Of a DNA stretch of 64,000 bases, positions 31,801 to 57,665 are shown one piece after another. How positions within the stretch are numbered: the stretch's first letter is position 1; every line of letters starts with the position of its first letter. Source of the stretch: Rhabditoides inermis (lineage: Eukaryota > Nematoda > Chromadorea > Rhabditida > Rhabditidae); contig CAWZYM010000308.1 in NCBI GenBank assembly GCA_963966185.1, positions 421,001 to 485,000 on the forward strand, read 5' to 3'. The translations under genes and the position numbers were made by a program. The notes below the pieces were generated by a model. It was given only the letters and a program-made list of their open reading frames with translations. It searched no databases and was not told the DNA's origin.

Positions 31801-31909
31801 TGGTGTATTTTCTCTCGGTGCGTGTTGTGGTATAGTGGGCTGCCACGCAGCGAGTAGGCTCCGCCCACATAGCGCCTCCCTCGTCTCGCTACGCAAACGA
31901 AATTGAATA
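31783..31909 (-). repeat. Direct repeat copy 2 of the DIRS-like element
   Basis: About 127 bp nearly identical to 34768-34900, with a core of more than 100 bp differing by about one base. It lies between the RNase H frame and the recombinase, as expected for an internal copy of a split direct repeat. Confidence 0.85.
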
Positions 31910-31987
31910 ATTTTCGCTCCATAAATTCCGTGAAAACTACAATTTCGACGCTTCGCAAAACAGGGAGGAACGGGCTAGAACACTTCC

Positions 31988-35798: not shown

Positions 35799-37958
35799 AT
35801 GTCCAATCTACCGTACTTTGTCGCCGAGCTACCGCCCACTCTGTCTGACAACAAGCGACTCGCCATCGTACACGTGAGTATCAATCGATATCGATCGGTT
35901 TGATTGGCACCGGTAATGCATTGCAGTTCTTCGCATCGTTCGGCATCCAGTCTGCCTTCTTCTGTCGTGATGTCTCGTTCGGACAGGAGTTGGACACACT
36001 CCGGGACTGTCTCCGCAAGCAGCAGCACCTCAAGGCCTGGGCGGACAACCTCCGCCAGCTACAGTCGCAGCAGGTACGCTATCTATGAGGGATTGATGAC
36101 GTCACTGAGCGCAGGGCTGCACCCTGTCGTTTGGCGATGTGGCGATGCCGTCTGGCACAGCTGACATGCCAGCGTCCACTCTCAACCGACTGCCAGAGAA
36201 GACCAACCAAGAGATGATCGCTCCAGACACCAAGTCTGTCACCGTCCCAGACACCGTAGACAAGGTGGGCGAATCTCTTCATATTATTGATTGGGATCTC
36301 GATTATTGATTGATTGCAGTCGACTGACTCGCCTACTCCTCCTACACCAGCCCCTACTACTTTTCCTTCTCCCACTCCCTCCACTGTCTCCGTCGCCCCT
36401 TCCTATCCCGGCAATCCCATCAACTTCAAGTGCGAGGTACGCTTCTTGATAGGTTATCGATTGATATCGATCGCTTTTTGATAGGTTATCGATTATTATC
36501 GATCGCTTCTTAATAAGTTATCGATTGATATCGATCGCTTCTTGATAGGTTATTGATTGATATCGATCGTTTCTTGATAGGTTATCGATTGATTTCGATC
36601 GCTTGCAGGTGTGCTCTCAGCCTCTTCTCAGGGCGTCTCTTCTGCATGTCTACACCCACATCACAGAGAGCCGATTCGCATGCACAGAGTGCAGCTACGA
36701 GACAAATAGTACGTCGATACCGTATACCTCCTCATATTCTACCGTATATCTTACCATAACATACCGTATTCTCAGGTGGTCTCGGTAAGATCACGCACCA
36801 CGCATGGCACCGCATGATCAGCCGCGTCACCACCGACAGCAACGTGGGTGGTCTTGTTTACTTTTGTTTACCTGTTTACTCTTTTCAGTATCGTCGCGCG
36901 TGCATCCGCATGTTCCGCAGCTGTTTCCCGGACTCACCCGTACCCAATCTGCCCCCATTCCAAGGAGTGGTAGTGGAGAAGGAGCAGGAGCAGGCGAAGG
37001 AGGGAGAGGAGGAGGTGGGTGACTGTACTACTTGGGTTACTGTACTGTCACCTTTGAGGGTCCTGCTATGAAACGGTCGTGCCCAGTTGCTCCCGAGGAG
37101 ATCAGCCAGGAGATCAAACCCGCTGCACCCGCTGTCCCTACTCCCGCCACTCCATCTGCGAAGCCCGATCCGGACGGTCAACCCATGGTCGTGTGTGTGG
37201 TGAGTGGGGTACTGTAGCTGTCAGTGTAGACTACTGTAGTTGTTGTCGTCACACTGTAACCTTGTCTCATTGCAGATCTGCCACCCCTCGTCCTCCCCCC
37301 TGTTCCGTCTGTCGGTGCGTGGCTCTGCTGCTCTCCTGTCTGACTCTCTCCAACACGCCCATCTACACATGCCCCTCCCCCGGTTCGCGTGCTGGACCTG
37401 CGGATTCAACCCTGTCGGTCAGTACTCAAAGGTTACTGTAGTTTATCATTGTTTACTGTATTTAGTTATTATTTTGTGCTACTTTAGTAGTCAGGGTTAC
37501 TGTAGTCTGATTCTGGGTTACTGTAGGTGCGTCGCGGAACCAGCTGTTCGAGCACTCGCTCTACCTCAACCACTTTGTCGGTGATCGGATGGCGGGTGAC
37601 GAGAAGGCGAGTCTCTCTCTCTCCTCTCTCTCCCTCCCTCCCTCCCTCTCTCTCTCTCTCTTTCTCTCTTTTCTCTCGCCCCTCTCCCCCCCTCCCTCCC
37701 TCCCTCCCTCCCTCCCTCCCTCCCTCCCTCCCTCCCTCCCTCCCTCCCTATCTCTCTCTCTCACACACACACACACCCTCTCTCACTCCCTCGTTTCAGT
37801 TCCTTGTGAAGTTGCTGCAGTGGCACAGGGCGTGTTTTCCTTACTCTCCCCTTCCGTCCATCAACCAGTCCGACAGTGGAGCAGGAGGAGCAGTGGGAGT
37901 GGGAGAAGCCGGAGAAGAAGAAGGAGTCCGTGTCAAGCAAGAGATTGTGGAGGAGTAG
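35799..37958 (+). CDS. Gene A: clustered zinc-finger family member with two modules
   Basis: Eleven exons: 35799-35873, 35927-36073, 36115-36264, 36320-36436, 36609-36708, 36776-36843, 36889-37014, 37059-37199, 37276-37417, 37527-37606, 37800-37958; 434 residues. Residues 1-60 form the family N-terminal domain (FVAELP near 7, then a VSFGQEL box near 45). A Pro/Thr-rich linker leads to module 1 (about 161-241: C-x2-C-x10-H-x3-H, then C-x2-C-x12-H), closing with FRSCFPDSPVP. An acidic and Pro-rich linker leads to module 2 (about 307-400, first finger with a long loop), closing with HRACFPYSPLP. The last residues are acidic and contain a VKQE sequence of the SUMO-site type. Intron 10 has a GC donor and a CCCT microsatellite. 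AATAAA lies at 38060. Function unknown; paired fingers suggest nucleic-acid binding. The acceptor at 37058 (TTTGAG) is the weakest splice call. Confidence 0.8.
36440..36599 (+). repeat. Five tandem 32-bp repeats in gene A intron 4
   Basis: Five copies of a 32-bp unit (CGCTTCTTGATAGG then TTATCGATTGATATCGAT) start 3 nt after the 5' splice site and run to the 3' splice signal. The ATCGAT core also occurs singly in many other introns of the cluster. Confidence 0.9.
37607..37799 (+). repeat. CT/CCCT microsatellite filling gene A intron 10
   Basis: The intron begins with GCGAGT rather than GT and is almost wholly TCTC and CCCT repeat, then CA repeat, before TTTCAG. Neighbouring exons join in frame across it, so a GC-AG intron is likely. 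Confidence 0.75.
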
Positions 37959-38059
37959 TATGTGTTATAGCGATAGATTAGTTTAGATTCTATAGATTAG
38001 CATTAGTAGTAGTTTGTGTTTGTTTGTGTCGTGGTTCCAGTCCAGTGATTTCAAATTTG

Positions 38060-38065
38060 AATAAA
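38060..38065 (+). terminator. Polyadenylation signal of gene A
   Basis: AATAAA 102 nt after the gene A stop and only 68 nt before the gene B start, with T/G-rich sequence after it. The tight spacing is what a polycistronic pair with trans-splicing would show (inference). Confidence 0.55.
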
Positions 38066-38132
38066 CGTGTTGTTTTCTCGTGTCTGTCCTTCCCTCGTCA
38101 TTTCCCTCGTTTCTCCTCTCCTCGCCTGTCCA

Positions 38133-39190
38133 ATGGAAGCTCACTATCCGCACTTTGTCGCTGATCTACCAGTCGGGTTCTGCGAGCAGAAACGACAGAT
38201 CATCATCGAGGTACGCATTATCGATTGATTGTCGTTGGAATATCGACCTCTCCTAGACGTTCCGATCGCTGGGCGTGGAGTCAGTGTACTTCACGGACGA
38301 CATAGCCCTGGGGACGGAGCTGATCGCTCTTCGCAGGGCGGCGACGGAGGGAGGGGCGGGGAAAGGGGAGGAGATGGTGTGGAGGCGCACACAACCAGTC
38401 GCCACCGCACACCATGTGCCCGCCCCTCCATCCACTCCTCCACCTCCCCCTCCTCCGGAAACCAGCCAGAGGCCTGCCCTTCTTCCTCCTGCTCCTCCTG
38501 CTCCTCCTCCGCCACCGAGGATCATCTGCCAGGTACACTTTACATGTTATTGATTGATTATCGATTTCTAGGCGTGCAACCTCTCTTACGCCATGCCCAC
38601 TCTGAAGCATGCGATTGGCCATGTTGAGACACCGCGCTTTCCCTGCCAACACTGCTACTACAAGGCCAATAGTGCGTCACTGAACTATACAAATACTGTG
38701 CTCGGGATTACTGTACTTAATAAACGTATTTTGTTCAGACTACTACGAGCGGGATCGTCACATGACCGACACTGGCCACACCCTCTCCGATCGACTCACC
38801 AGTGACGCAGAGGTATCGATCCGATCCATCAATCGATATTCATCAACTATTCCAGTACGAGACGCTCTGTCTCCAGCAGTTCGAAGTGTGCTTTCCGGGA
38901 GTGGCACTGCCCAAGAACGGAAACAAGTGGAAACAGGACTGCATCAAGACAACGGTACTCAATCTACAGTAACTCAGCAATCTACAGTAACCCTTTCCTC
39001 ACAGGCGCCGCTGTATGTGTGGGGTGCGACGGTGCATATGGAGGAGGTGCACGAGTCGTGGAAGCAGGCTGTGTTGCGGGGGGAGGCGGCAGTGCAGGAG
39101 CCGGAGAAGCGAGTGCCCAAGAGACAGCAGCGACGACAGGGGCCGCGCGCCGACACACGCAACCGATGCTACTGGGACAGACACGCATAA
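38133..39190 (+). CDS. Gene B: clustered zinc-finger family member with one module
   Basis: Six exons: 38133-38210, 38257-38532, 38572-38671, 38739-38812, 38856-38954, 39005-39190; 270 residues. The N-terminal domain covers residues 1-56 (FVADLP, then FRSLGVESVYF and a DIALGTEL box), split by a phase-0 intron as in its paralogues. A strongly Pro-rich linker (about 75-113) follows. The zinc-finger pair (117-172) is the clearest in the window: C-x2-C-x10-H-x3-H, an R-F linker, then C-x2-C-x12-H-x5-H with TGH at the end. The closing motif is FEVCFPGVALP (about 185-195). The C-terminal 50 residues are rich in Arg, Lys and Gln. Likely a small nuclear nucleic-acid-binding protein (inference). The gene lies 174 nt after gene A on the same strand. 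Confidence 0.83.
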
Positions 39191-39313
39191 GTGACGTCAT
39201 ACCATTTGTCCTGCATCAATGAAAGACTATTATCATACATTTATATTATAACATACTTTTTTAAAGCGTTTCGGAATGGTTTAGTGAATATACACAGTAC
39301 AACTACCGTAGCT

Positions 39314-41296
39314 CTACCGTTTTATGGAATGGGATGAGACGATATGGAACTCGCTTGGCAAGGAACGGCCTGGAAAGCAGCGACGGAAGTTGCTCGCGCA
39401 CTCAGACCGCCACTGCAATGCACACGTCAACCACAAACCCATATCTTTACTCAAACCAATCTAGACAAAATGTGTTCGGCACCTGATCATCGGAGCGCAT
39501 TCTGTCGACGAATTGATGGTTGCCGGGAGGATGGTACATCAAGCTCGCTCAAATATAGAAACATATGTATCACAGTATAAACATTATTTACAAGAACTTA
39601 CAGTAGCCCTCAGCCCTACCGTAACCACCTCCGTTCAGTTCTTTTTACAGTATCTCACTCACACTGGTGGGCGTAGTCGCAGTCACGACACCCGAATCGA
39701 GGCAAGGGGAGGTGCGAGTTGGCGTGGGTGAAAGACGCGCGACACCACAAGCCACACACCTGCCACAAGCAATCGATAAACAGTCAATCAATCAATCGAT
39801 AACTCACCATGCACTGCCGCTCGTCAGGGTTGTGGGGGAAGGCGCAGTGCTCGTCGTCTAAGCCGTTGTTCCGCTCGATCGGTTGAGAGACGCAGGGAAA
39901 GTCGAACTCGTTCAGGGGCGCAGCCGCCATCTTCTCCTGCAACTCTTACTCTTGATTTCGTGTCTAATCTCAAAACAAGGCACGTACGTGTGATAATCAT
40001 CCTGGACATGACTTTCTATCATATACGCATCCGCTACACGGAAATTTGAATAACCAACAAGATTGAAGTGCTCACGAGTTGAGAGAGGTCCGGCTTGACG
40101 TCGTCGTCGTGGTTGAGTTGAATGGGTTGGGGATTGGCGAGTGCGGGCGGCGGGGAGGCGACACGATCGCTCCATTCCTCTGCCCGCACTCCTTCCGACA
40201 GCCTCCTCGGGGGGACTCAAACCACGTTTATATAACACCAAGGGATAGTAGCACGGTAAGAGGCTATAGTGGATGAATAACAAGTCTGACAAGGAAGATT
40301 GTAGAAATGACGGAACTGACCGTTGACATTGGGTTTCATAAGGGGGCGCCGCGGGAAGCCGTCGCCAACCGCGCGGACCCCTCTATAGGGATGGGCCCTG
40401 GTGAACGTACGAGGGGGATGGGGTGCGACTGTGGTGGGAGCGCGCATCGGGGCGAGCTGGTTGACAGGCCGCACCAACGAGACCGGCAGGGCGAGAGGCG
40501 CACGGGGGAGCAACACGCGCACCCCGCCGTTCGGAAGACGAGACGTCGTCGCCTAGGCACGTTACAAGCAATAATCCATAGATACCCACATTTCGAGGAA
40601 TTCCCGTCCACGTTGAGGAAAACTGACGTCTCTGCACCACTCGAGTTGGATAAGTTGTCTGAGTCTGAACGACGAAAATCATAACCATGTAAGGGGAAAT
40701 AGTTCTACCTCCGCGTTGCTGACGCTGTCTTGGCGCGAGACCACCCTGAACGTCTGTGTGGATGAATGACGCACTTTCTTAATAGGGACGGCGTTCTTCG
40801 CTTGATTCGAGAACGTGTACTAAAACAATACACCGTAGAGATGATCACGGAAACACACCACCATCTGTAAAACTCAATTACATACATCGGAGGTGCGAGA
40901 GTCATCGCTCGCACTGGAGCAGGGATGGGCGGAGGCCGCGACTGGTACAGTGGGGACGATTGGCTCGGCAGGGACAGCCAAGGGAGACGCGCCGGCAGCC
41001 AAGACCTCAACAAGTTCGCAGTTCGCTTGCGTTCTACAGTATTGTATTGAAAGTATTGTATACAGTATTGTATTGAAACACGCCGCGTACCTTTGCCCTG
41101 GCCTTCTTGAGCTCGTCGAGCGTGTTGCCGAACGCCACTTCCTCGGCGAATACCACGTCCCGAATGCTCAGTGACGTGTAGAACTGAACAACGAATGTAA
41201 ATGAATAAATAGATAGAACCAACACACCTTCATTATGGCGACGTGGTCGCTGAACTCAGCGGGCAGCGAGGCCACCACGTACCGGTATATGGACAT
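39314..41296 (-). CDS. Gene C: clustered zinc-finger family member with one module
   Basis: Eleven exons on the minus strand, 5' to 3': 41228-41296, 41091-41183, 40886-41005, 40709-40819, 40590-40664, 40321-40552, 40076-40215, 39808-39936, 39663-39759, 39483-39547, 39314-39412; 409 residues. The N-terminal domain covers 1-54 (VVASLP; FYTSLSIRDVVF; EVAFGNTL). A long, low-complexity Pro/Ala/Arg region (55-300) separates it from the finger pair (about 322-368: C-x2-C-x9-H-x3-H, then C-x2-C-x10-H-x4-H). The closing motif is FRRCFPGRSLP near the end. The start is preceded by TTGTAG two bases upstream, a possible trans-splice site. The exon 3 acceptor (TTGTTGAG, at 41006) is the least certain; it was chosen because it alone keeps phase. 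Confidence 0.75.
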
Positions 41297-41654
41297 ACCT
41301 ACAATATGTGATAAAAGCAAGTACAATACATAACGAACAAAACTGAAATATGAAAATCAAAAAGAAAACAATAATATTCAAAAATTGAAATATAAGCGGG
41401 CCCGCGGGAACAGCTGATTCTCATCGGCGCTCAATTTCACGAAATTCGAATCATATGGGTACCGAATCATTTCGATTACGATAATAATGATTAATCATTA
41501 ACGATCTCTTTTATATACCGACCCGACCGTAATTTACATTCTTGTTGTGAAACTAGTAGGCAAGTACACCACGTACACCACAAATTAATTCCGATATCAA
41601 TATTTCATTCACAAAAGAAATGAGCATAAATAATAAAACAATACTAGTACGATA
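41297..41654. other. Intergenic region between genes D and C
   Basis: AT-rich, 358 bp, between the gene D stop and the gene C start on the same strand. No ORF, RNA or repeat of note is visible. Confidence 0.6.
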
Positions 41655-43656
41655 CTAAGTGATCTTAGCCAGGGCAGCAGCGATTCTTGCTTCCGCTTCC
41701 AATCGAAGCCTTTTTCTCTCGGCGATCTGAAATTTAACAATTAGAACTCATTTATCCAGTTGAGTTCACACCTTTTCCCTGAGTGTGAGATGTTTGGGGG
41801 GCGACGAGGGTTTCGGGGGTTCGGGAACATGACTAGTCTTCGGACGCCGTACAATTGTCGTCATCGAAGGCATCACATCGCCTAGAGACTGGACGGTGGT
41901 GAGTTTCTGAAAAAAAGTTATTGAGAGAGAATGAGAGCGGGAGAGAGGGAGAGAGAAGGAGAGAAAGAGAGGGGGGAAGAGAGGGAGAGAGAAAGAGAGA
42001 GAAAGGGGGAGAGAGAGGAACAGAGAGGGAGAGGGAGGGAGAGAGAGAGAGAGGGGGAGAGAGAGGGAGAGAGAAGGAGAGAGAAGGAGAGAGAGGGAGA
42101 GAGAGGGAGAGAGAGGGAGAGAGAGGGAGAGAGAGGGAGAGAGAGGGGGAGAGAGGGGGGGGGAGAGAGAGAGGTGGAGGGACTCACCCCGTTGACGAGC
42201 ATAACAGTGGTCTTGCACGATGGGTGGAGGGAATACGCGCGCATCACCCCCTCACTCTGTGTAACTGGTTGCAACGGCAGTGTACGGATCATCTCAGAAG
42301 AAGGGAATCTAGCCAGCGCGTTTTTAATCACGGAATCAGCAGTGTGGGTCTGAAATGAACGAATTGATCGCTGATGTGATGCATTCATCACTCACCCAGA
42401 CTCGAATCTGAGTATTCTCCAGTTCTCGGTTGATTTCTACTCCCATAGGCACAGCAGCAGAAGTGGCAGCTCTCGTGAGAACAGGGGGAGCCTCTCTCTG
42501 ATCGTGCGACGTCTCTTTGGCCTTTCTCTTCTTCGCATCTGGCTGGCTGGTGTCGGATACTCCCGAATCGGGGGAGGATGCGCAAGGGACGGGGACAGAG
42601 GGAGACTTCGGGGAAGAAGGAGAGACGGCAGCTGGCGATACGACCCACGCCTCATCCCGGAACTCTCGAGGCACGTATTCACCCGGATAGCAGCGAGTGA
42701 ACATGCGACCACACTCATCACGGTACTGCAAAAGAACAGAATTGTTATATCAGAGAATTAATCGATAAACTAACATTCTTGTCCGTCGCCAATCTGTCAA
42801 TATGCGTGTGTTTGTTGGCAGTACTGTGGAGTGACTGTGTGCGTGGATCTGAAAGAGTGGAGTGAATGTGATATGGGAGGGAGGACTGACAGGATGACGT
42901 ATAGCAGCACTGCTGGCACGCGTATCGCTTGCCACTCTTGCCGGGGTGCGCGTGTGCGATGCAGTGAGTCGCCACGTTAGCCACTGTCTTGTGACACATC
43001 TGCAACCATCATATGACATCACTATTACCCTAATCGAAGCAATTCACATCACAAACGCGCGTCTTCTTCGGTAGCGCTGCACGGGCCGTACTGAGCACTG
43101 ACTAAAACATGATTTATCAAAAACGATAGGTAGTGGTATTGCTTACCGCTTGCACTGGAGGAGCATGGTGAGTGTAGAGAGGAGGTGGAGGAGCAGGAAC
43201 AGGAAAAGTAGTGGGAGCAACAGGGGGAGCAGTCTGGAGAGCGGGAGAAGCAGTCGGAAGGGATGGAGGAGCAGCGGAGAGGATAGTCGGCTTGAGCTCC
43301 TCTGCGTCCACCGCTTCTTTCTTCATGCACAGCTTCACCGGCTCACTCGGGACTGATGAATCCGGATCCGGCTCCGGAGAGTCCAGGAAAGGTGGCTCCT
43401 CGCCATCCACAGGGTCAGCGGGTAGCGACTGCGAGGGCGATGACATCATCTGACCCTCTTTCAGCCGAATCAGCTCCGCACCGAAGGCAATCTCACGAGT
43501 GAAGAAGACGTCTTTCACGTTGAAAGCCGCAAAGAACTAAAGAGTACGGTGTACATGGGATACATCGGAGATGTCTTGTACCTTGATGACAAGCTGACGC
43601 TCTGGAGCCGTGAATTCTGGAGGGAGTTCGGCGACGAAGTAGGGTTCGAGAGGCAT
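41655..43656 (-). CDS. Gene D: clustered zinc-finger family member with one module
   Basis: Nine exons on the minus strand, 5' to 3': 43582-43656, 43147-43536, 43048-43101, 42891-42999, 42775-42848, 42396-42725, 42188-42349, 41772-41906, 41655-41726; 466 residues. The N-terminal domain covers 1-55 (YFVAELPPEF; FFAAFNVKDVFF; EIAFGAEL). An acidic then Pro-rich linker (56-165) follows. The finger pair (about 172-228) is C-x2-C-x9-H-x3-H and C-x2-C-x12-H-x5-H. The closing motif is FTRCYPGEYVP (about 242-252). Unlike its paralogues it continues for 210 more residues: a Ser/Pro-rich stretch with a KKRKAK basic patch (possible nuclear signal) and an Arg/Lys/Glu-rich C-terminal helix. Intron 7 is a purine microsatellite on the plus strand. 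The frame stays open upstream to 43905, so an N-terminal extension is possible, but the paralogues support this ATG. Confidence 0.82.
41919..42172 (-). repeat. GA/CT microsatellite in gene D intron 7
   Basis: GAGAGGGA-type repeat on the plus strand, thus CT-rich in the transcript. It begins about 15 nt after the 5' splice site and ends about 13 nt before the 3' splice site. It creates long spurious frames on both strands. Confidence 0.9.
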
Positions 43657-43952
43657 GGCAATGATGGAGTGAATCAGAAGAGTCTCCTGCAGACTACTTG
43701 TCTCCCCCATCTCTTTTCGAATGATACATGCTTGAATGGGGTATGCCTCCGGCGTGGCCATGTAACCGTGAGAGAAACACTTCTGTTCCTGGGTCAAAAT
43801 ATGCGGGAACTGGTTAGTGCCTCCATTCTCCAAAATGTGCGTTTGCTTGGGAGTGAATCGAAAAAAAAGAGCTTTGAGTGAATGAATAACAATTTCCATA
43901 AACACTGACTTTTTCTCAAGTTACGAAGAAGGATTTGATTGAATCATTTCTT
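43657..43952. promoter_or_regulatory. Divergent promoter region between genes D and E
   Basis: 296 bp between two outward-facing start codons. No clear TATA box or operator is seen. Part of it (43657-43905) is an open frame continuous with gene D exon 1, so it could also be 5' coding sequence of D. Confidence 0.35.
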
Positions 43953-44795: not shown

Positions 44796-47700
44796 ATGAT
44801 GACGTTCGCCATGGCGGACGACCGCCAACGGCTTACACAGACTGTCGAGAAGCTCAGCACCCAAACTGTAAGATGTTTGAACCACGGCTCGTCAAGCGCG
44901 CACTCCCTCTATTGAAAAAGCGTGGCGATCAGAGGGGGCGGAGCTTATTGAAGTGGGCGTGGCTTGAATTCGAATTTTTGTTTCAATTGTAATCACACAA
45001 AAGATTCGGACAAGTGAGGTATCGAACCCCGGTAGCTAGATTACCAGGCTACCGTGATCGCATTGCGCCATGGAGGGTCTGAGGCGAACTGCACAAACAC
45101 TTCCCAAGTTGTCGCGAGTTTCGCCACTGGTGATTAGCGAGTTGTGATTCGCAAATATGCATTTTTGGCTTTCGTGCTGAGATTTGATGGGCGTGGCTTA
45201 AATCGATCTGAGTAGTGAAATGGCTTGAGCCCGTCACGGAGGGAGTGCGCGGGCTCTGTTGTTTTGACGAGCCGTGGAACTATTACTTCTTTTTTTACGA
45301 ATTTGGGAGTTATCAGATCTTGCTCTCGAACACAAGTGTGAACACAAGTAGGTACCACCATCGGATGCGGAACTGACGTCTACAGCGCGATCGCTCGTGG
45401 AGATGATGCGAGCTAACCTCGCTCCTCTCGAACCCGCACTTAAACAGGCTCAGCAAAACGTCGTCGAGTGAGTTCAGTCATTAGAATGGTTGAGTTTATC
45501 ATATAATTATAGCCTTGCCCGTCTCGTACCGCTCGCATCCCCCGCAATGGGCGGCTACATGTACACCGTGTTTTTCAAAGCATGCGTCGATCTGCTCCTC
45601 GCTCAGATCATTAAGGTATTTGTGATTTCGAGATAATGTTTTCTTTCGTGATTTGAAAAGCTTTTCGACCCCACTTGAATACAGACTGGAGCATCGGACG
45701 TGGAGTCTCGCGAGCTCGCGGGCGTTCTGCTACACTGCACCCTCGCAGCCGCAGAGACAGTCACCAATGCAATCGATAAGCAGGTATGATTCACGTGATG
45801 GTTCGTTACCATGACTCATCACTCATGTAGGAGCACGGTCTGGTGGTGCTCGACCAGTTGGAAGCGTCTTCGCTGCTCGCTCGCCTCAGCCACTCGTTCC
45901 CCATTGGATGGCTGCGCCGTCGCTGCCTCAACAAGGACAAGGAGGTATATGCGGTTTATTAAATCGCATTGTTTATAATGATTTATCATGCCTATTTTCG
46001 TTTAGATTGGCGAGTGTCTAGTGGAAGATCTGATCCCGCAGGATGTTGTCCACTCTATGCAGCGTATTCCTCCCTCTCTCTTCTCACTGTTCATCGACGT
46101 CAATAAAGTGGCGGAGAGGAGCGAGAAGGCCACGCCCACCGATGAGAAGCTCATCAACGGTGAGTCGCATGTTTACTGATTGTTATCATATGCATTTGTT
46201 TGAGTGAGTTTCCTGGCACGTTTCCACTCTTCTTTCCTTCGCCGCCTTGTGTGGCTCATCGGACACGACAGTGCATTCGCTTCCGGTGAGTGAATGAAGA
46301 TTGCGGATTACGGTAGACGTTGAATGGGGATTGTATATTTACATGCTCATTATAGTTTCATTTGTCGACTCGTTTCTGTCTTCTCTGCCCGCGATTGCTC
46401 CTCTGCAAAATACTGGCGAGATGAAGCTGTATAGGTCTGATGTCAAGGTGAATCTTTGTTGTAGTTACACTTTCATTAGTTTACTGTTGTTTCAGATTCT
46501 TCTGGTGGCCCTGTCTTCCTGGTCGCAGGAGCATTCGTCGACCATCCGGGCTGCCGGATCCGGCAAGTCTCCCGCACCCGTTCCCTCTGCCATCGAGGCT
46601 CGGTGAGGAGGGAGGACGATTGATGAAATAAGTATAAATGATTTTATTATTGATATGATTGATTGCAGTTTCCCGATGACTCGTGAGCAGCTGCAGTGCG
46701 CGACCAAGGTGCTCTCTGTGGCGGAGACGGCCAATAAGTTAGTATCTTGTTGTTGTTGTTGGTGTTATGGCGGTGATTGACGCGTAGAATTGCAGGACTC
46801 AGGCCTGCGACATGATGGTTATGCTGCAACTGCGCAATCTCACTGACACCACTAGACTGGTAAGTGAAAGGGGTTGCTGCTGATAACCTATGATAATTAC
46901 TATGACAACGAGGGCGATACGTGTACGAGAGTCTAACTGACAACAATCATGTTGAGAACCGCTCGGCTCGCGTGTCGATCAGGGTGCTATCGGCTGTGTA
47001 TGAGATGCTGGCTGCGAGTGGGGAAGAGGCGGCCGAGTGGGCGGAGCTGTTCGCCCAGACAATCGAGAAGGTACTGTGGCCGAGTGTGATCCGGTTACCG
47101 TTTTCACCTGATTGTAGATGATCCTGAACACTGACGTGGCGTCGCGTCGCAGTGTGGAGCTGTTCCCGCCCGGCGGAGAGCCACTCACCACCGATGAAGA
47201 GGTACGAGAGGGATGGGATTACTGTATGCCCACTCCTATTCTATAGGGTATCCCCCATTTTCACAGTACAATTTTCGGCGGTCGGTCAGACAGACGAGAA
47301 ATGACGAGGAATTTATGCATAAACAGAGTCATTATGAGGTTTTTGTGAAATAACTCCGTTCAAAATCAGAAATTCAAGAAAAGCCCACGACAATCTCTTC
47401 GTATGTATCTTCCGGACGTGGTGTGCAAGTTTGGTGCAAATTGGTTCAGTTGGAACCAAGTTATTAAAGGTTCTAGTTTTCCCGTTGAAAAACGGTCGTT
47501 TTTACCACTTTGTTGCTCATAATTCACTTAGTTTTTGAGATGTCGAAAAAAGCCCACGACAATCGATGGGCCGTATACAGACCTATACACTCTGAAAATT
47601 TTATGTTATTCGGAAAAGTCTAAACGGAGTTATTAGCTCTGGAAGATGCTCCGATCTGCTTCATTTGACTTGCAAATGACCCTCATTTCCCTAAAATCAG

Positions 47701-50212
47701 ACCGCCAAGCGCGCGAATCGCGCGGTCGAATGGTCTTGCGCAGGCCGATAGCGCGACTAGATGTGATGAAATGATGTCTAGAAAACATGCAGCGAGATGG
47801 CTGCCGTACCGTGAACCGGGGGATACCCTATAAACGTATTAAATGTTGATTGATTGTGTATGCTTATCTAGGAGGATCTGCTGCGTGGTGTGCAGTTGTT
47901 CCTCTGTGGTCGCTCGGCTGCTCGGGGCGAGTGGGCGGCTGCGGTGGCCAAGGCAGACCAGCACAGACACGACAAACACGGCGCCAGCCAGCTCGTCAAG
48001 GTGGGAGGAGGGGATGGTGTGAAGAAGAAAAGTATTATGTCAAGTTATATTTGGTTTGAGTTTTGCAATAGTAATGAGATACCGTTTCAGATCGTGTCTG
48101 CTGCGCAGTCTGCCGGCAAGGCTCTTCCTGAGTGGATTGCGAGGGCAAAGGAGGCTGAGGTGGGTTGTTTCAAGGACTTGAAAATGTGTTTTAATGGAGT
48201 CTGATCAATTGTTATCTCTAGGTGAACCATAATTTCTATCATGTATTGTGTTCAGGCCCTTCTGGCGAAGATGTACGCTGCCAAGCAGCCGGCGCAGCAG
48301 CAGCAGAATAAGGAGAGGGTGGTGGAGCAGTCTGTCCGAGACGCGGACAATCTGCTTCTCCCTCCCAACGCCGATCCCAGTCGCGAGTCTATGTCAGTTT
48401 CTTCTGTCCCTTTTCTGAGTTCTAATTCGCACTAGATCCTCTTTATTCTGATAATTTCTTCCAGTGCCCCGTGCGAGTTTCTCTCCCCCATTGGCTCTCC
48501 GTCTGGCTTCGAGCCGCGCGTCCGCGGACCGAGGAAGAGTCTCATGGTGAGTATTGATTGATTGGCTATTGATTCATTCATTCGTGTGTCAGATTGACGC
48601 GGAGACGATGGTGGACGACTCGTTTGTGTCTGCTCGGTCGGATATGACGGCGACTCCGGAGCCGCAGGAACCGGCCGCCACCCTCATCTCTCCCGTCCTG
48701 CCCGCGGCTGAGCCAGCACCTGCCACGCCTGCCAAGAGCGAGGTTCGGTTGGAGTATGATGTATACATGTAATGGTTCATTTCCAGCGCGGCTGTTCTCC
48801 TATCAACGTGCCGGTGTCGCCTCCCGAGGAGCCACATCCGAGGACTGGAGTGGTGAGTCATGTGGGGGATTATGAGAGTACGGATCGGATATAAATGGAA
48901 TGCAATGAAAATAAGTGATGTTGTTTTAGCCGCCGCCTCTGGGTGGGAATGTGGCGGACATGTCTGTGATGGAGTGTCCGGAAGGCTTCGTCGAATCGCC
49001 GCAGTTCTGGGATGAGATGGAGGAGTCTTTCGCAGACATGCGACTCAAGATGATGCGCATTCAGCTCAAGCAGGTCGAGGTGAGCGTGTTAATTATTGAT
49101 TATCGATTGCATGGTCTTTGCTGTTCTCTATTCACTGGTGTGTATAGGAGGCGAACTCCCGTTCGGCGGCTCGTTCGGAGGAGATTGCGCGGGAGAAGGC
49201 GGAGGAGGAGGAGAGGGAGGTGGACAGACTGCGGGAGGAGGTGCGGCTTCTCAAGGAGCAGCAGACTCGCCTCGCCGGCCCCGCCCCCGCCAGCCCCGCC
49301 CAGCAGTCGCTCGCCCGTCCGCAGCTCGGAGACCCGTCGGCCCTGCTCCGACAGCAGCAAAAGACGCAACTCCAGTCGCTCCTCCAACAGCCCAGTCGAT
49401 TCGGTGCGTTGCATATCGTGTGATTGGCTTCTGATTGTATTGATTGTCTCGTTCCAGCGTTCCCCTCTCCCCAGGCTGCCACTCTTCCGCAGATGATGCC
49501 ACTGCAGAAGGGTTGGTCTGACTTGTTTTTGTTTTGTTTTTGAAAAATATGATGTTTCGAATTAGCGCCTTTATTATTGCGTTGTTGTCAGGAGGCACGG
49601 CGTGGCAGGAGTGGCGCAGTCCGGCGCTGGATGCGACGAACGCGGCGGATGTGACGAGCGAGTCGCCCCTGGCTGCCATCCAGAGGATGGCCATGCAGGC
49701 TGGAGGAGGGGGAGGTGCGGGACTACCCGCCCCCACTGCTCCCGCCACATTCAGCCCCATGTTCCCCCAATGTGCGTGGTGGAAGGTGAAAGAATGAATC
49801 TGAGTTGTTTGGAATCGTGAAGATTGGACGTTATAAGTTATAGTTTGTATATGATGATATTTCAGTGGGTGTGAGTCCGCAGGGCTCGTCTCCTTGCAAC
49901 GACACGATGTCGTTCTTTGGTGGAGGTGGGTTGAGGGAAGACGGTAGATCGATATGGCATGGTGGTTTCAGCTTCCCGCGGAGTGATCTCGCCGCAGGTT
50001 GACCAGACCCTCAACAACACTGTCGACTTTTTCAAGAAGACTGATGACAGTGAGTGTTACAATGGTTTCCTTTTGTATGATTCTGCAATGGTGTTGTTTG
50101 AGAGTGTCACCACGCGGAGGCTGGACGCTGTCTGGGCTGTGGATCGGACGAGGAGATCGAGCGGGTGATGGCTATCCTCACCCAACTGGCCGACAAGGCA
50201 GACATGGAGTAG
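44796..50212 (+). CDS. Gene F: large helical and coiled-coil protein, family not recognised
   Basis: Twenty-six exons: 44796-44867, 45352-45467, 45513-45615, 45685-45783, 45831-45944, 46006-46159, 46205-46285, 46356-46447, 46496-46602, 46669-46737, 46796-46859, 46957-47070, 47118-47201, 47872-48000, 48091-48159, 48256-48392, 48465-48546, 48593-48742, 48787-48852, 48930-49079, 49148-49403, 49458-49511, 49592-49771, 49866-49925, 49972-50049, 50103-50212; 929 residues. Residues 1-490 are predicted by eye to be mostly amphipathic helices with few low-complexity stretches. Residues about 500-640 are Ser/Pro-rich and probably disordered. About 650-720 is a charged coiled coil (EEIAREKAEEEEREVDRL region). 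The rest is Gln/Pro/Gly-rich, ending in a short helix. An adaptor or scaffold role is only a guess. A transposon sits in intron 13. Least certain are the exon 7 and exon 26 acceptors, chosen by phase. Confidence 0.72.
45010..45082 (-). pseudogene. tRNA-like sequence (tRNA pseudogene or SINE head)
   Basis: On the minus strand an A-box-like TGGCGCAATG and a B-box GGTTCGATACC lie at tRNA spacing, with a T-arm of four pairs. The acceptor ends do not pair and the anticodon arm does not form a 5-bp stem with a 7-nt loop, so it is not a working tRNA. It lies in intron 1 of gene F. Confidence 0.35.
47242..47832. mobile_element. MITE-like element in gene F intron 13
   Basis: About 590 bp bounded by perfect 15-bp terminal inverted repeats, TATAGGGTATCCCCC and GGGGGATACCCTATA. 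The ends could include a TA target duplication, as in Tc1/mariner-type insertions (inference). Inside, the 17-mer AAAAGCCCACGACAATC occurs twice, about 175 bp apart. No transposase frame. The host intron is 670 bp, against about 50 bp for its neighbours. Confidence 0.8.
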
Positions 50213-50555
50213 GAGGAGGAGGAGAAGGAGCTGTCTGCTGTCTTTGAGTCCATGTTGTGTTTGTGTAGTAGGAGATTTTGGATTGTGACCCCCTGCGCTC
50301 GTTAAATTCTTTTTCATGCTAGCTCAAATTGTGTTGTACTACTGCCCCCGCTTCCCATTTGTTGAATTGTCCCGGGTTGAATACGTTTTCTCGCGATCTG
50401 CGAATCTGTTCTTGTGTTTGTTCTGTGGTGGGCACTCTCGCCTTGATAAATGTTTTACCTTTATTGCGTTTGAGTGTATGAAAACGTAATTTAGCTGTTT
50501 GCAACAGTTGAATATCTGATGTTTGAAGTAGTGTTTGATTTTAAAAGCGATTTAG
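50213..50555. other. Intergenic region between genes F and G
   Basis: 343 bp, T-rich toward the right. It ends in GATTTAG immediately before the gene G ATG, a possible trans-splice acceptor. No ORF or RNA recognised. Confidence 0.55.
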
Positions 50556-53500
50556 ATGACAAAATTTATGATTGCGCGATTGCCGCATGGATTTGCAAAG
50601 TATGGAGAAGCGATTGAGGTGAGATTGACCACATTGTGTGTGCCATAGCCAGGAACTACAGTACATCTGTCTATATTTGAGTCGCTGTCTCGTCTGGCTG
50701 TGACGACAGTGCACTTTGCGGAGAGTGTGGCATTCGGGGAGGAACTGAACGAGCTGATCAACAAGGCCAGAGAGAGGCGAGTGCAGAGTTGGAATGGAGA
50801 TAGGATAGGGGAGATTGACGTTGGTTTCAGTGGCGCCCGCACCCCTTCTAACCAGGTAGAGTCCACGTCTGCTCCCATGGAGAATGACGACGATTGGTTG
50901 GTGATTAATTGTGTTCGAGTTTGTACAATAATGTCTTTTCATAGTGCGATTATTGGATCTTCCAGTATTATTTTTGTGTAATGCAATGTTCAGTGTGATA
51001 GTGGATGTGGATGAGACGGAGGAGGAGCAGCGCGCCTCGTCTGTTGAGGTGGTGGAGCAAAGGGAAGAGAAGGAGGAGGAGAAGCTTGTGGTGCAGGCGC
51101 AGGATCTGGTTGTGGTGAAGCAGGATGTGGATGTGAGTTATTGCAACTTTTTTGATATCTCATATTGATTTTCATAGGAGCCGACACAATCTTCGTCTGC
51201 TGTGGTGGAAGAACCCGCGACTCCGGATGCAGTCGAGTCTGTGGAGCCAGTGGCGAAGAGAAAGGTGGGCGAGGAGGAGGGAGTAGTGATTTGGTTCTGG
51301 ATTCAGAGACCGTATGTGCAACAACTGGCACACGACGAGGAGGCTGTGCGGTGCAAGGTTGGCGACTCCCTCCCTCCCTCTCCCTCTCCCTCTCCCTCTC
51401 CCTCTCCCTCTCCCTCTCCCTCTCCCTCTCCCTCTCCCTCTCCCTCTCCCTCTCTCCCTCTCTCTCCCTCTCTCTCCCTCTCTCTCCCTCTCGGATGTAG
51501 GACGTTCCCTCTATTTTTGCAAGGTCCTCCACTTTTGCATGGTCCTCCACTAGCATGAACGATTCCTCCACCGACCATGAACGATCCCTCCACTTTGCTA
51601 GGACGTTCCCTCCACTTTAAATTTAGGCGTTTCACATCTAATGTGTAACGTTTGTATGTTCTAATACATTATTTAGCCATAAATAATGAACTTTAATAAT
51701 GCCTAGAAACTTTCACCACGTTTGCTCATAGTTAGTGATTCACATCTCACAAATCTCTCTCCTTCTATTAGGAGCCATGGCCCATGCGCGAGCCAACCAG
51801 AGAGACGATATCGTATTCGCGATGTCGCTACTTGTAAACGGATATGAAGATATCATATTTAATAGAAAATGAGTTAAATATTCATCTGCCCGTTTGTCTG
51901 ATGAAAGATATCAGAACTGAGTGTGAGTAGTGGAATAATGAAGACAAACAACAACAATCATACCTCGTATAGTTTCACTCTTTTCACGAGAGACATTAGA
52001 GTGGTTAGACAAAAATGAGAACGCGTTGGACGATGTTTTCGTTTTGACAAAACTTTGCGTGTGTAGCCAAATTCGAACCGCTGCTTGCAAAGCGAGAGCG
52101 TTACCTTTACGCCACGTGGTCCTGTGAGAGAGTCAGTGAAACGGAGATACGAAAGGCGCCACAAATCTGCTGTGCATTTCGTTCAGTATACTGTATGTTC
52201 AAAATCCACGATAATGTTTTCACCGAAAAATCCTGAGCTAAGTGCGAGTCTATTATAAACGAGAATCAAAGTACTTATTGTTAAAACTAATCTTACACCA
52301 TTAGTGACAATCTGTTCACTAGTAAATATTTCCAAAGTAATGTTTTGATCATATGATGACTTCATGCACAAAAGACGTTCGCGTTTCAATCCGTTCTTGT
52401 TTCCGTTTAGAACACGATAGGATTAGAATACTATAAGGATCAGGATATTTTCAAAGTAGCATAATTGTTCAGATTAGTAATGTAATTTCCTAAGTGTGGT
52501 TCAAGTCCGATACTAATTGTAAGGGTATCGTAGTATGGTATATCCGATTTCAGTATAGAACCCCGATTCATGTCTGGCAGTGATTCGTTAGCATATAGCA
52601 ATCCGCGAAAGATAACTACATATGGGATATGGGCCATAGGCCATAGGCTTGTTTTTTTGGTTTTTTTGATAAAATAGAATTTAAATATTGTTAACCCACA
52701 GAGCTGTGCTATAGCTCCGTAGAATACCCGTAAAACATTATCCGTGAATGCAGTCACTTATGGAAATCATTTGTTAATTGAATTTGCTGAAAAGTTAAGT
52801 TAGAGAATACAGTTGCTGCAAGAAAGTGCGGTAATGTAAGTTTCTATTCCGAAGCCCGTACGACGCGCGAAAAGATTGACAAAAGTCTCTACTTGTGATG
52901 ATGCGTTACTTGAACAATGTTATCGTAATGCGGCAGCGGCATTTGGCTAACATGTTGAAAAAAACACGATGTAGATGCTTTACAAACTAGCATATTATTA
53001 TAACATTGTTTGTACGTAGTGCTGACTTAAATAAATAGTTATGCTGAATGATGTGTTCCATTGTGGTAGAATGTTTGTCTTCAGGTTGGCTCGTGCAAGG
53101 CTCTTTGTGGAAGGAAAGAGATGAGTGATAACTATGACTATGAGCAAACATTTTAAAAGTTTCTAGGCATTATTACGAGCATTATTTATGGCTAAATAAT
53201 GTATTAGAACGTTCAAACGTCACACATTAGCAGTGAAATGCCTAAATTTAAAGTGGAGGGAACGTCCTATCAAAGTGGAGGAATCGTTCATGGTAGGTGG
53301 AGGAATCGTTCATGGTGGTGGAGGAATCGTTCATGGTGGTGGAGGAATCGTCCTTTGCACTCAAACTAAAAATTGTGGAGGGAACGTCCTACATCCGTCC
53401 TACATCCCTCTCCCACTCTCTCTCTCTCTCTCTCTCCCTCTCCCTCCTCTCTCCCCCCCTCTCACCTCCTCCCCGTCCAGATCTGTGCGTGTGTGTTCTC

Positions 53501-55580
53501 GTCTCCGTCTACCCACTGTCTCTTCCTCCACTCGTCCACCCATGTGGCTGTCTCCCTGGGAGACACGCGGGGCCAGTTCAGCTGCCCCGCCTGCCACGCA
53601 CACACCAACAGTGAGTGGAAGGGAGTGGGCAACGCCAACGGTCACTAGCTGGAATGAAAAGCGACAATCGAAACGTATAATTGATACAAACATGGTCGAT
53701 TCTTGTCTTTAACTATTGTGTTGCGTTGCAGGCGCACAGTCTCGTCGCAAGCACGAGAGGGACACTGGCCATGTGATGATCGATCGGCTGGAGGGAGACA
53801 AACAGGTACGGTGTATGCTCACTTGCGATACCCCCTTCCCTCTTCATCGTTGTCTTTATCAAACACCGTTACAGTACGTGTCCAAGTGCGTTCGCGTGTT
53901 CCGCGAGGCATACCCAGACATGGCTCTTCCCCAGAAGATTGCGGAGACGATGTGTGAGATGGGAGTGACGCTGGATGGATTGGAGAAGGAGGAGGAGGAG
54001 GAGGGGGGCAGGAGAGAAGACAGGTGTGATGCACGTGCAGATCACTGGTGGAGTGTGTGAGATGGTGGTATTGCAGTCTGTCGCCGGTAGTCGTGGATGA
54101 GGCTGGTCCGTCGAGAGAGGTCGCGAGTCCGCTCGTGTCATCTGGTCGGGGGAGTGCGGCGGGTGATGGAAGGACGACTTCCGCAACGACGGGCAACGAA
54201 AGGATGTGTGTGGTGGGTGCAGCCAATATAGTTAACTGAAAGTACCAAAATTCACGTGAAAGGTTGTCTGCCGTTTTGTGCTTTTGCTGAAACTTTTATG
54301 TTGTTAGTTCTGGTGGGCGTTGAAAATAGTTTTTTGTGGTTTTCTAGGGAATGTTTTGATGGTGAAACGTATTTTCTTTAAAAGAATTTAAGTGGAAATG
54401 GACATGACTTTGAACGATCAATGCTTTCAGTTGTGTGGTGAGCGTGTCTGCGGTGGATTCTTCGCGCACGCCCGCAGCCACGTGCCTGCCCCAGCCGCCT
54501 TCCCCTTCAGGTTCACGTGCGACGCGTGCGCGTTCCGATCCTTTGGTGAGTAGAAGAAATCACATGTTACTGTTTTTTGTACAACCGTTTCTGGTTAGTT
54601 GCTGTGTATTATGTGTGGGTTGCAGCGTCGTCAGCTATCCGCGCCCATTCCTCCGAGACTGGCCACCGCACCACGGACCGCATGCTCACCGATTCAGGGG
54701 TGGGTCGAGGGTGACTGCTTCCTTATTCCATTCTTCACTTTGAGTACGCGGAGGACTGTCGCGTTGTGAATGAGGCGGCGTTTCCGCGAGAAGATACCCC
54801 GATGGCACGGGCTGCGGAGATGAATGGGAAGCGGTTCGTGTTGGACAGGAGTGCACACAGACACTCACCCACTCTTCCCATGGCATTCCCCGTCAAGATC
54901 ATCAACAAGCACCAGTGCAAGGTAGCCGACTGCTCTACCCATCTCCCCCCCCCTCTCTCTCCCTCTCTCTCCCTCTCTCCCTCTCCCTCTCACCTGTCCC
55001 TTCATCTTCATCACCCTTTCATCGTATTATTTGAGATCTGTTCGTACCGGCTGCACTCTGGCCACTGGCATCTCAAGGCTATCCATGCCTTCACCCACAT
55101 TGTCCACACCACACACGGCACTCGCTTCAAGTGTCTGCACTGCAACTTCACCACCGCCGGTGGGTAGAGTGGGGGGAGAGGGTGCGGGGTACAAGGGCTA
55201 CTGTAGGCATGGCTGCTCGCACAACTCATGTGAAGAAGCTGGGTCATAAGATGCCCGACAGACTGCAGGAGGATCCTGTGGTGAGTGGAGAGAGAGATGG
55301 AAGGGAGAGAGAGAAAAAAACGAGAGAACGAGAGATTTTTGTTTCAGTACGCGAGTGAGTGTCGTCGCATATGGTCTGTGGCGTTCCCGGGCGATCCCTT
55401 CCCTCTAAATGATTACTATTCCAAGCCGCCTGGGAAGGTCAGATTCCATTTACTATGTTTCTTTTGATCATTGCAGTCTACGTCTATTGGTTGTCTAGCC
55501 TCATGTATTTATGAATTCAGGCCACTACTTCGAACGAGCCTTTGTTTGATACGAAGGGCGAATATCTGAAGGAGATCTAA
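50556..55580 (+). CDS. Gene G: clustered zinc-finger family member with three modules
   Basis: Sixteen exons: 50556-50618, 50682-50896, 50994-51132, 51178-51264, 51307-51357, 53481-53610, 53732-53805, 53875-54023, 54077-54212, 54431-54545, 54626-54699, 54745-54921, 55036-55159, 55207-55280, 55348-55437, 55521-55580; 585 residues. The N-terminal domain covers 1-50 ([23 protein letters not shown]). An acidic linker rich in Glu/Val (70-165) follows. Three finger pairs lie at about 184-250, 347-408 and 469-533; each second finger is C-x2-C-x12-H-x5-H and each second-finger exon is 74 nt. Each is followed by its closing motif: [35 protein letters not shown]. The intron inside the first CxxC of module 1 has grown to 2.1 kb by a transposon. 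Likely a nuclear nucleic-acid-binding protein made by repeated module duplication. Confidence 0.8.
51361..51492 (+). repeat. CCCTCT microsatellite in gene G intron 5
   Basis: CT-rich hexamer repeat starting a few bases after the 5' splice site. It is interrupted by the inverted-repeat element and resumes at 53408-53460. Confidence 0.9.
51493..53396. mobile_element. Long-TIR non-autonomous transposon inside gene G intron 5
   Basis: About 1.9 kb with imperfect terminal inverted repeats of roughly 250 bp. Outer ends are GGATGTAGGACGTTCCCTC on the left and its complement on the right (53378-53396). Homology continues through the sequences around TTTAGCCATAAATAATG (left) and CATTATTTATGGCTAAA (right). 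The right arm has about four subterminal copies of GGAGGAATCGTTCATGG, the left arm fewer. It splits a CT microsatellite, so the target was low-complexity DNA. The longest internal frame (105 codons, 52757-52440 minus) has no transposase motif. Confidence 0.8.
52048..52125 (-). pseudogene. tRNA-like sequence inside the long-TIR element
   Basis: Minus strand: A-box-like TGGCGTAAAGG, a D-stem GCGT/ACGC, a potential TTTGCAA anticodon loop and a B-box GGTTCGAAT at tRNA spacing. The anticodon stem and T-stem pair poorly, so it is probably a decayed tRNA or SINE head. Confidence 0.35.
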
Positions 55581-55851
55581 TAATTGATTCTGACTAGAAA
55601 TACCAAAGACCTACGGTATTTAATAACACTATTAGTATTAATCATTACTGCTTCAATAACCTCACTTCACCTTTGTTTGTCTAGAGTTGGAGTTCACGAC
55701 GTTAGTTGTTTTTGTGTGTATAAATGTTAGATAAACTGTTTTTTAATCTTCGTATTTTTGTGAAAGACATGACATGACAATGTGTTAACGGTCACATGAA
55801 TATTTGTGTTGTTAAATTCATTTGTTTTCAAAAAATGGCTGCATTTCAGGA
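55581..55851. other. Intergenic region between genes G and H
   Basis: AT-rich, 271 bp. It ends in GCATTTCAG two bases before the gene H ATG, a good trans-splice-like acceptor. No ORF seen. Confidence 0.5.
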
Positions 55852-56374
55852 ATGGCATCGTTTCTGATAGCTCGTCTTCCGGACGGATTCGATAGACACG
55901 CAGAGGCCGTCAGGGTACGGTGTTGGTTTTATATTTACAAAAGAAGTGCGAATTCAAAAAAAAAGATTCCATTGTCAGGTGTATTTTGCACTATGATGTA
56001 TCTTGATGGTCGTATTGAGTCCATACTGGTTGACTATAATTGTTATTCCGCTTTTTCAGCTGCTCTCGTCTGTGTCGATCCCCAGTGTGTACTTCTCTCA
56101 GAGTGTCTCCATCGCCCTCGAAGTGACACGCCTCGAAAAGGAATGCGAACACAAGGCAAGGTCGGTTGGTTCACACCAATAACAGAACTTTTGAAACATG
56201 GGTTTAGTGTGGAGAGAGTTGATGTGGTCTCTCTTTCACCCCCTGTCCCCGAGAATGGGCAGAGGCGGGTGAAGGAGGAGCCAGTGGAGCCAGTGGAGCA
56301 GGAGCAGATGGAACAACTGTTCGATGTGAAGGAGGAACTGGTGGAGATGCAGGTGAGTGAGAGGAAGAGTGAGA

Positions 56375-56432
<58 letters not shown>

Positions 56433-57665
56433 TGTTCCAGACGCAGCCGAGCACCTCCCACAATAAGTGGTGGCTACGCGAAGGAGAGGTGATTTTTTTT
56501 ACTTAAATAATATGTTCCATATAATAATGACAATCACTGTATGAGAATTATAGTCAATTCGATGAATGTTAGTGATTAATTTCTCTATGCTATGATTGCT
56601 ATGTGTTCAGTCGTCTGTGGTGTTGCCGAGTGGGGAGGTCGTCTCCGCGTCCCTCCCTCCCCTTCCTCTTGTCAAGAACACTCCGAATGTGACCGTGTTC
56701 TCGCAGGTTGGTGGTCTATTGTGTCCTTCCCTCACCTCTCGACAGAGTCAGGCGAAGGAGAAGGCGCGACGCGAGGCCGAGGAGTTGAAGAGACGGCAGT
56801 ACGAGAAGAAAATGCGCGAGGTGAGCGAAGGGGAGAGTGTTCCTACGAGTGGTTGCAGTTGTCGTACGAGTGCTACGTGAAGCGTGGCTCGCCGCCGCAG
56901 TCTACGCGCGCCCCCGAACACTCGTACACCCACACAACAACACAATCCAGCTGTATCCAAGGCTATGTGCAGTGCCAGGTGAGTGGAAGGATCTCTCTCG
57001 GTTGAGTTGCGATGTGATTGGTTGAGGTGTGTGAGCGCAAGTTGGTGGCGACCCAGTCGACGGAGCGGCTGCTGCACGCGATGGAACACGAGTTCCCCGG
57101 GGGCATGCCGGACGAGGCCGGAGCTGGAGGGGAGGACTGGTGGCCGGGCAGCGGAGACACCAGGAAGATGTGCAGGAGGGGCAGGGGTGAGGAGAGGGGA
57201 AGCGACATACATAATGTGTGTTGTGGTTGGCGGTAGTATTTCTCATAGTCTCTGTTCTATGATTCTGTGAAGGTTAAATAGAAAAAAGGTAGTTGATTTC
57301 ATGATTTCAGTGGGTCCGTTGAAGCCGTTCAGTGAGAGTGCAGTGCGGCGGAGAGCCGGGAAGGATCCAAAGGTGAGAGAGGGATGGGGAAGAGGGAAGA
57401 GGGAAGGGAAGAGAAGAGAAGAGAAGAGAAGAGAAGAGAAGAGAAGAGAAGAGAAGAGAAGAGAAGAGAAGAGAAGAGAAGAGAAGAGAAGAGAAGAGAA
57501 GAGAAGAGAAGAGAAGAGAAGAGAAGAGAAGAGAGAGAAGAGAAGAGAAGAGAAGAGAAGAGAGATCAAGGTGTTCAGTTCTTGCGCGCCCTTAGCCGAC
57601 TGATGCATCTCGCTTTCCCCGGTGCTCCGATCCCGTCGTGGATGCATCTGTTGTTGAAGGAGTAA
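55852..57665 (+). CDS. Gene H: clustered zinc-finger family member with a degenerate module
   Basis: Ten exons: 55852-55914, 56060-56160, 56208-56352, 56441-56488, 56611-56706, 56746-56820, 56859-56978, 57027-57186, 57311-57372, 57579-57665; 318 residues. The N-terminal domain covers 1-54 (FLIARLPDGF; VSIPSVYF; SIALEV), closest to gene G. An acidic linker with VKEEP and VKEEL repeats and a basic helix (about 152-176) follow. The module keeps the exon plan but not the fingers: the first CxxC and two His are present (about 215-240), while the second finger lacks its Cys and His ligands. The closing motif survives at the very end (LMHLAFPGAPIP). It may have lost nucleic-acid binding or changed role. 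Introns 3 and 9 are purine microsatellites. Confidence 0.75.
57394..57565 (+). repeat. GAGAA microsatellite in gene H intron 9
   Basis: Nearly perfect GAGAA pentamer repeat within the intron at 57373-57578, starting about 20 nt after the 5' splice site. It produces long repetitive frames on both strands that are not genes. Confidence 0.95.

Follow-up and report, generated by a model that had tools for sequence, protein, structure and literature searches.

A 64,000-nucleotide stretch of the genome of the nematode Rhabditoides inermis (contig CAWZYM010000308.1, positions 421,001 to 485,000 of the forward strand; hereafter, the window, with its contig denoted C308) carries six genes, A, B, C, D, G, and H, that follow one plan: an N-terminal domain (N-domain), a low-complexity linker, and repeated three-exon modules. 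Each complete module is predicted to encode a tandem pair of atypical C2H2 zinc fingers and a conserved tail, ECxRxFxxCFPxxxLP. Judging from sequence, we consider it reasonably probable that the six genes represent a lineage-restricted family of nuclear, DNA-binding zinc-finger proteins that function in a manner similar to the ZAD-ZNF genes of insects.

A three-exon module behind a new N-terminal domain

The initial annotation of the window had proposed nine modules of three exons each, and translation exon by exon bore this out, with all 27 exons present, an AG acceptor preceding every one of them, and the joined reading frame open in each of the nine modules. The donors are GT, with the single exception of a GC at exon 2 of module A2 (exon 10 of gene A), and exon 3 of modules A2, C1, and H1 is closed by a stop codon rather than a donor. 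All nine modules show the same succession of intron phases, as had been described: the first intron, which interrupts the first CxxC, is in phase 0, the second is in phase 1, and the third, which precedes the closing motif, is again in phase 0. The accompanying claim that the phase-1 intron follows the second CxxC in all nine modules had to be narrowed to eight, the exception being H1, which keeps finger 1 and the closing tail and has lost the second CxxC along with the histidines of finger 2. Because both the first CxxC and finger 2 are interrupted by introns, the borders of fingers and exons do not match: the first cysteine of a module is encoded in the upstream exon, and finger 2 is shared between exons 1 and 2. 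Several introns end in TTGAG, as opposed to the commoner CAG or TAG, namely, those before 37059, 50682, 54745, 55036, and 57027 on the plus strand and before 39547 on the minus strand; the acceptor of gene A exon 8, before 37059, reads TTTGAG.

As a control for chance, a splice-aware scan that demands the module intron phases was run with a scoring profile built from the nine modules. The scores reached 100.9 bits in the cluster, which includes the training modules, whereas 458 kb of first-order Markov surrogates yielded 133 candidates, the best at 5.2 bits. No candidates were found in the window at 25.7-35.6, 43.7-50.4, and 57.7-64.0 kb, in loci L001-L011 (other C2H2, SL1 RNA, and COX1 loci), or in six Rad51 loci. 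Against this background, the modules cannot be attributed to chance.

Alignment of 22 modules, including copies outside the window, yields the pattern CxxC, HxxxH, R[FY]xCxxC, H-x(4-5)-H, and DR, followed by the tail. The second cysteine and both histidines of finger 1 are present in all 22 modules; its first cysteine was seen in 15 and is assumed in 7, in which the upstream exon was not read. In finger 2, the two cysteines are found in 22 and 21 modules, respectively, and each of the two histidines in 20. A profile of 21 modules (H1 omitted) matched solved C2H2 pairs in the PDB from E = 1.6e-9 (ZNF568, as well as CTCF and PRDM9), mostly over profile positions 2-56, which cover both fingers and leave the tail outside, and seven of the 21 modules matched Pfam zf-C2H2_2 weakly (E <= 1). 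Thus, the module, as a C2H2 finger pair with a tail, is a domain of known kind, and by its ligands and profile matches the family is placed in the C2H2 superfamily; with the N-domain cysteines missing, it is not ZAD-ZNF. The initial annotation knew of no named family with this combination, and none was found for the whole architecture, although the type of domain that makes up the module is a familiar one.

The N-domain comprises ~50 residues, with the consensus FVAxLPxxFxxH...IxFFxSLxVxSVxFxxxVAFGxEL. Eleven copies align, six in the window and five elsewhere in the genome; those in the window are interrupted by a phase-0 intron after 21-26 residues. None of the 11 copies matches any Pfam family at E <= 10, and the corresponding profile matches no PDB chain at the same threshold. 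There is no cysteine conserved across the 11 copies. Likewise, no KRAB domain was recovered from the 11 N-domains or, at E <= 10, from the full-length proteins A and B. The pattern of the domain suggests a strand-helix-strand-helix arrangement, and its function is probably protein contact.

Copies across the genome and purifying selection

The search for further copies covered the 172.6-Mb genome. Spliced modules or N-domains of the common plan are present on six other contigs, with weaker matches on more, and the consensus peptides of both the module and the N-domain match outside the window as well. Beyond C308, 11 of the 38 hit loci yielded modules spliced in the same phases at 37-69 bits (surrogates, <= 5.2 bits); C295 accounts for seven, of which four overlap, and C312, C331, C327, and C324 account for one each. 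An analogous scan that requires the N-domain intron, run without a surrogate background, identified spliced N-domains at 56-70 bits at two places on C331 and at one each on C396, C327, and C324; those on C295 were read by eye. On C295, tandem copies lie ~7 kb apart, and stretches with four and five modules in the same orientation were read as single genes. One module on this contig has an extra intron and another has exons 1 and 2 fused, so that the intron plan is strongly, not absolutely, conserved. The proposal of the initial annotation that the family spread by duplication is supported. Because a tree of 22 modules was unresolved, with none of its 19 inner branches starred, we claim no order for the duplications.

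As counted by eye, the family matches are concentrated on contigs C295-C332, which hold 82 of the 91 matches of one genome search, 23 of 24 and 12 of 12 N-domain matches in two others, and 21 of 32 matches to another module query, the remainder being weak. For the ordinary C2H2 family PF00096, the corresponding count is 1 of 40. In all these counts, matches within a tandem cluster are not independent. If contig numbers follow the map, a single chromosome block harbors most of the family.

Two pairs of near-identical copies show purifying selection, which places the genes under constraint. In the tandem pair L021/L022 on C295, the nonsynonymous (dN) and synonymous (dS) divergence amounts to 0.030 and 0.095, respectively, in the fingers and to 0.041 and 0.137 in the tail, that is, dN/dS is ~0.3 in both (Fisher p = 1.3e-5, pooled). 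In the C327/C324 pair, the N-domain and tail accumulated no amino-acid changes versus six synonymous ones. The fingers of the latter pair differ by 13 nonsynonymous and 6 synonymous changes, a ratio not different from neutral (p = 0.21). We found no sign of positive selection on the fingers: dN is below dS in the pooled fingers, and the test on the C327/C324 fingers is not significant. Upstream, C327 (L057) and C324 (L058) differ by one mismatch and one gap in ~1297 bases, but the difference rises to ~12% in the linker and introns and to 13% in finger exon 1. The two may be copies of one locus; divergent haplotypes or gene conversion would account for the pattern.

Relatives in other organisms were sought in a protein collection with a method that needs shared 5-residue words. 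None of the 7997 candidates scored against gene A reached E <= 1, and none of the 2724 candidates for a masked alignment of five sequences reached E <= 10. Nematode major sperm protein, used as a control query, retrieved 242 proteins at E <= 1e-20, with names among the best 120 of the 242 including Caenorhabditis, Pristionchus, Mesorhabditis, and Steinernema; this control, with a protein of far higher conservation, speaks to the content of the collection, not to the sensitivity of the search. Therefore, the family either is restricted to a poorly sampled lineage or evolves too fast for the method, and its characterization as old, in the sense of widely conserved, was not borne out in a collection that contains Caenorhabditis, Pristionchus, and Mesorhabditis (no homologue at E <= 1 or E <= 10 in the respective searches). 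The architecture was not found in the available portions of the literature, mostly outside subscription papers, on HIM-8/ZIM, on the zinc fingers of Pristionchus, and on expansions of C2H2 genes in nematodes. Pristionchus-specific zinc-finger expansions have been reported, and the architecture of the present family is not described in the accessible part of that report (PMC9526060).

Gene models and genomic neighborhood

Genes A and B have complete open frames from ATG to stop. Gene A (35799..37958, plus strand; 434 aa) consists of 11 exons with consensus splice sites that encode an N-domain (35799..36073; 35799-35873 and 35927-36073, joined across a phase-0 intron), a linker, and two modules. 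Module A1 spans 36609..37014 (exons 36609-36708, 36776-36843, and 36889-37014; plus), with its first cysteine in the upstream exon ending at 36436, and module A2 spans 37276..37958 (37276-37417, 37527-37606, and 37800-37958; plus). Gene B (38133..39190, plus; 270 aa) combines an N-domain and a Pro-rich linker with module B1 (38572-38671, 38739-38812, and 38856-38954; plus). Two genes are encoded on the minus strand. Gene C (39314..41296) is a partial model of an N-domain (41296-41228 and 41183-41091) and module C1 (39663-39759, 39483-39547, and 39314-39412; minus), without settled linker exons. Gene D (42396..43656) has an N-domain encoded by 43656-43582 and the start of 43536-43147 and is open for 344 codons through the third exon of module D1 (42891-42999, 42775-42848, and 42396-42725; minus); possible tail exons leading to a stop near 41655 are tentative.

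The remaining two genes are partial models on the plus strand. Gene G (50556..55580) has an N-domain at 50556-50618 and 50682-50777, three modules, and a probable last exon from ~55521; a 2.1-kb intron precedes module G1, which is linked to the N-domain by exons that are only partly placed. Its modules are G1 at 53481..54023 (53481-53610, 53732-53805, and 53875-54023; plus), G2 at 54431..54921 (54431-54545, 54626-54699, and 54745-54921; plus), and G3 at 55036..55437 (55036-55159, 55207-55280, and 55348-55437; plus). Gene H (55852..57665), also without settled linker exons, joins an N-domain (55852-55914 and 56060-56158) to the degenerate module H1 (57027-57186, 57311-57372, and 57579-57665; plus), which consists of finger 1 and the tail, with no finger 2. 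Taken together, these models agree with the earlier assignment of all six genes to one plan.

Much of the window to the left of the cluster is occupied by a satellite, mostly in 22-base units with the perfect palindrome CTCATATGAG, at 22-694, 1400-5672, 6454-25735, 27848-28407, and 30089-30824; the core occurs in 962 copies in the window. A 32-base form of the satellite has 1624 copies in the genome, 348 of these in the window, and among the matches listed, all are on C308 from position 280832 on. Between satellite stretches, an open frame at 28396-29868 encodes a retroelement reverse transcriptase (PF00078, E = 3.1e-28). It is followed on the minus strand by retroelement-like fragments at 30797-34454, which by eye appear to include a reverse transcriptase and perhaps also a recombinase; part of this stretch is repeated near 5645-6310. 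A long multi-exon gene lies on the plus strand between D and G (44797-50212); a 313-residue piece of it, joined by eye, has no convincing match in Pfam (DUF5926, E = 0.056). In the genome, SL1-like RNA yields 50 matches, all 50 at E <= 1.2e-5, with the best at 64.7 bits and none over the Rfam cut-off of 75, as would most likely be expected of a nematode. A 30-base repeat of P. pacificus (PMC8455136) has no counterpart in the genome when up to 1 mismatch is allowed, which makes an origin from that species improbable. A search for PF01808, an enzyme that P. pacificus is reported to retain (PMC9526060), was negative as well, but at a sensitivity that does not bear on the genus. Exons of the Rad51 family account for 21 matches, with places on C386, C312, C432, C433, and C27, and at least one gene may be DMC1.

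Function and comparison with known systems

If the family indeed consists of DNA-binding proteins, each finger pair would form, together with its tail, which is probably helical and packed on the fingers, one DNA-reading unit. Every protein would combine one to about five such units behind the N-domain and a variable linker, and the N-domain would pair the proteins or recruit a partner. Growth of the family would have proceeded by tandem duplication of both whole genes and modules, as with ZAD-ZNF in insects.

Several observations weigh against this interpretation. The Pfam C2H2 matches of five proteins all fall under the curated cut-off, and the 21 modules compared with Pfam individually give a best E of 0.00079, none of them having been seen to reach a gathering score (bit scores are those of the first member only, which lies under the cut-off). 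In classical C2H2 fingers, a leucine stands three residues ahead of the first histidine; finger 1 of the present modules often has F or L two residues ahead. Finger 2 mostly ends in H-x5-H, as in some RNA-binding fingers. Outside C308, 27 of the 38 hit loci contain no spliced module at 35 bits (19 have no candidate and 8 score 29.4 bits or less), although many had been retrieved on account of an N-domain match. Of the 17 N-domain loci outside C308, the corresponding scan confirms only 5. Finally, the N-domain resembles nothing known, so that the role assigned to it is a guess.

The spacing of finger 2 raises the alternative that the paired fingers bind RNA or proteins instead of DNA, with finger 2 (CxxC-x(10-13)-H-x5-H) belonging to the jaz/zf-met type. 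The H-x5-H spacing is seen, by eye, in most modules, and zf-C2H2_jaz, which is described as double-stranded-RNA-binding, is the best Pfam match of module G1 (E = 0.0014; best, 0.00079). However, zf-C2H2_jaz matches only 1 and zf-met only 2 of the 21 modules, and the 21-module profile fits DNA-binding C2H2 pairs best, so we regard this alternative as unlikely. It is far less probable still that the genes are spurious, arising from chance CxxC codons and chance splice sites, or are decaying pseudogenes. The loss of finger 2 from H1, the low-complexity linkers, and the unresolved linker exons of C, G, and H would fit such an origin, but the surrogate control, dN below dS in the copies, the complete open frames of A and B, and the identical intron plan at other loci all speak against it.

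A further explanation, which we consider rather improbable, is kinship or functional equivalence with HIM-8/ZIM of C. elegans, whose paired fingers and C-terminal unit recognize repeated motifs on meiotic chromosomes and anchor the chromosomes at the nuclear envelope so that they can pair. The strongest hint is that the 21-module profile matches PDB entry 8yvb_A over positions 5-85 of 95 (E = 0.0056), and among the best 60 of 138 matches this chain alone passes position 65; a second profile matches 8yvb (E = 0.024) and 8yva (E = 0.26). Structures of the ZIM/HIM-8 unit of two fingers and a C-terminal domain (CTD) on DNA have been solved, and 8yvb and 8yva may be those entries. The gene cluster also adjoins large satellite arrays. 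Nevertheless, many ordinary C2H2 proteins outscore 8yvb_A in the 21-module search, the match of the second profile to 8yvb stops at position 58 and covers only the fingers, and in six further profile searches (two of them limited to the best 60), 8yvb is not among the matches listed and 8yva appears in one (E = 1.3). Moreover, the word-based search with 2724 candidates gave no match at E <= 10 in a collection with Caenorhabditis proteins. HIM-8 and ZIM-1/2/3, a set of close C2H2 relatives, are encoded in one operon and bind 12-base chromosome motifs (PMC9071541); homologues have been reported from many clade V nematodes, Pristionchus being an exception (PMC8455136). In contrast, the genes described here number more than four and are located on both strands and on other contigs. 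The N-termini of HIM-8/ZIM are reported to lack structure and to carry recruitment motifs for CHK-2 and PLK-2 (PMC9140367), unlike the conserved N-domain here; among the three genes scanned, B and D contain the polo-box core S-[ST]-P in their N-terminal parts and A does not.

A bolder version, which we hold to be quite doubtful, is that a HIM-8/ZIM-like finger-finger-tail unit turned into a large repeat-reading family with a new N-terminal interaction domain, located on one chromosome block and with one to five units per protein, which would mark chromosomes via satellites such as the CTCATATGAG array beside the cluster. A pairing role, if true, would bear on chromosome recognition in nematodes outside Caenorhabditis. 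Lineage-specific zinc-finger families, such as KRAB in vertebrates and ZAD in insects, are a source of new DNA-binding specificities, and a nematode family that departs from these in both its N-domain and its unit would add an independent case, in which module copies can be compared one by one.

With the classical C2H2 arrays (ZNF568, CTCF, and PRDM9 in the PDB), the present family shares finger pairs that align over both fingers, and differs from them in a longer and variable spacer, atypical spacing within the fingers, and the extra conserved tail. HIM-8/ZIM proteins reportedly possess a finger-finger-CTD unit like the present module. They are likewise clustered paralogous C2H2 proteins of a nematode (PMC9071541, PMC8455136, PMC9140367, PMC9998088), but they are the products of four genes that form one operon, and their N-termini are unstructured (PMC9071541, PMC9140367). 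In R. inermis, the genes are more numerous and occupy both strands, and their proteins have a conserved N-domain and as many as about five units. The likeness to insect ZAD-ZNF extends to the order of N-terminal domain, variable linker, and C2H2 fingers and to gene clusters, common intron positions, and lineage-specific expansion (PMC9810180); in the cucoid clade, for instance, 26 of 27 genes are located on one chromosome arm and share introns (PMC9810180). ZAD contains four invariant zinc-binding cysteines (PMC9810180), whereas the N-domain of the present family has no conserved cysteine, its fingers are paired with a CFP tail and repeated as separate units, and its introns fall inside CxxC and finger 2.

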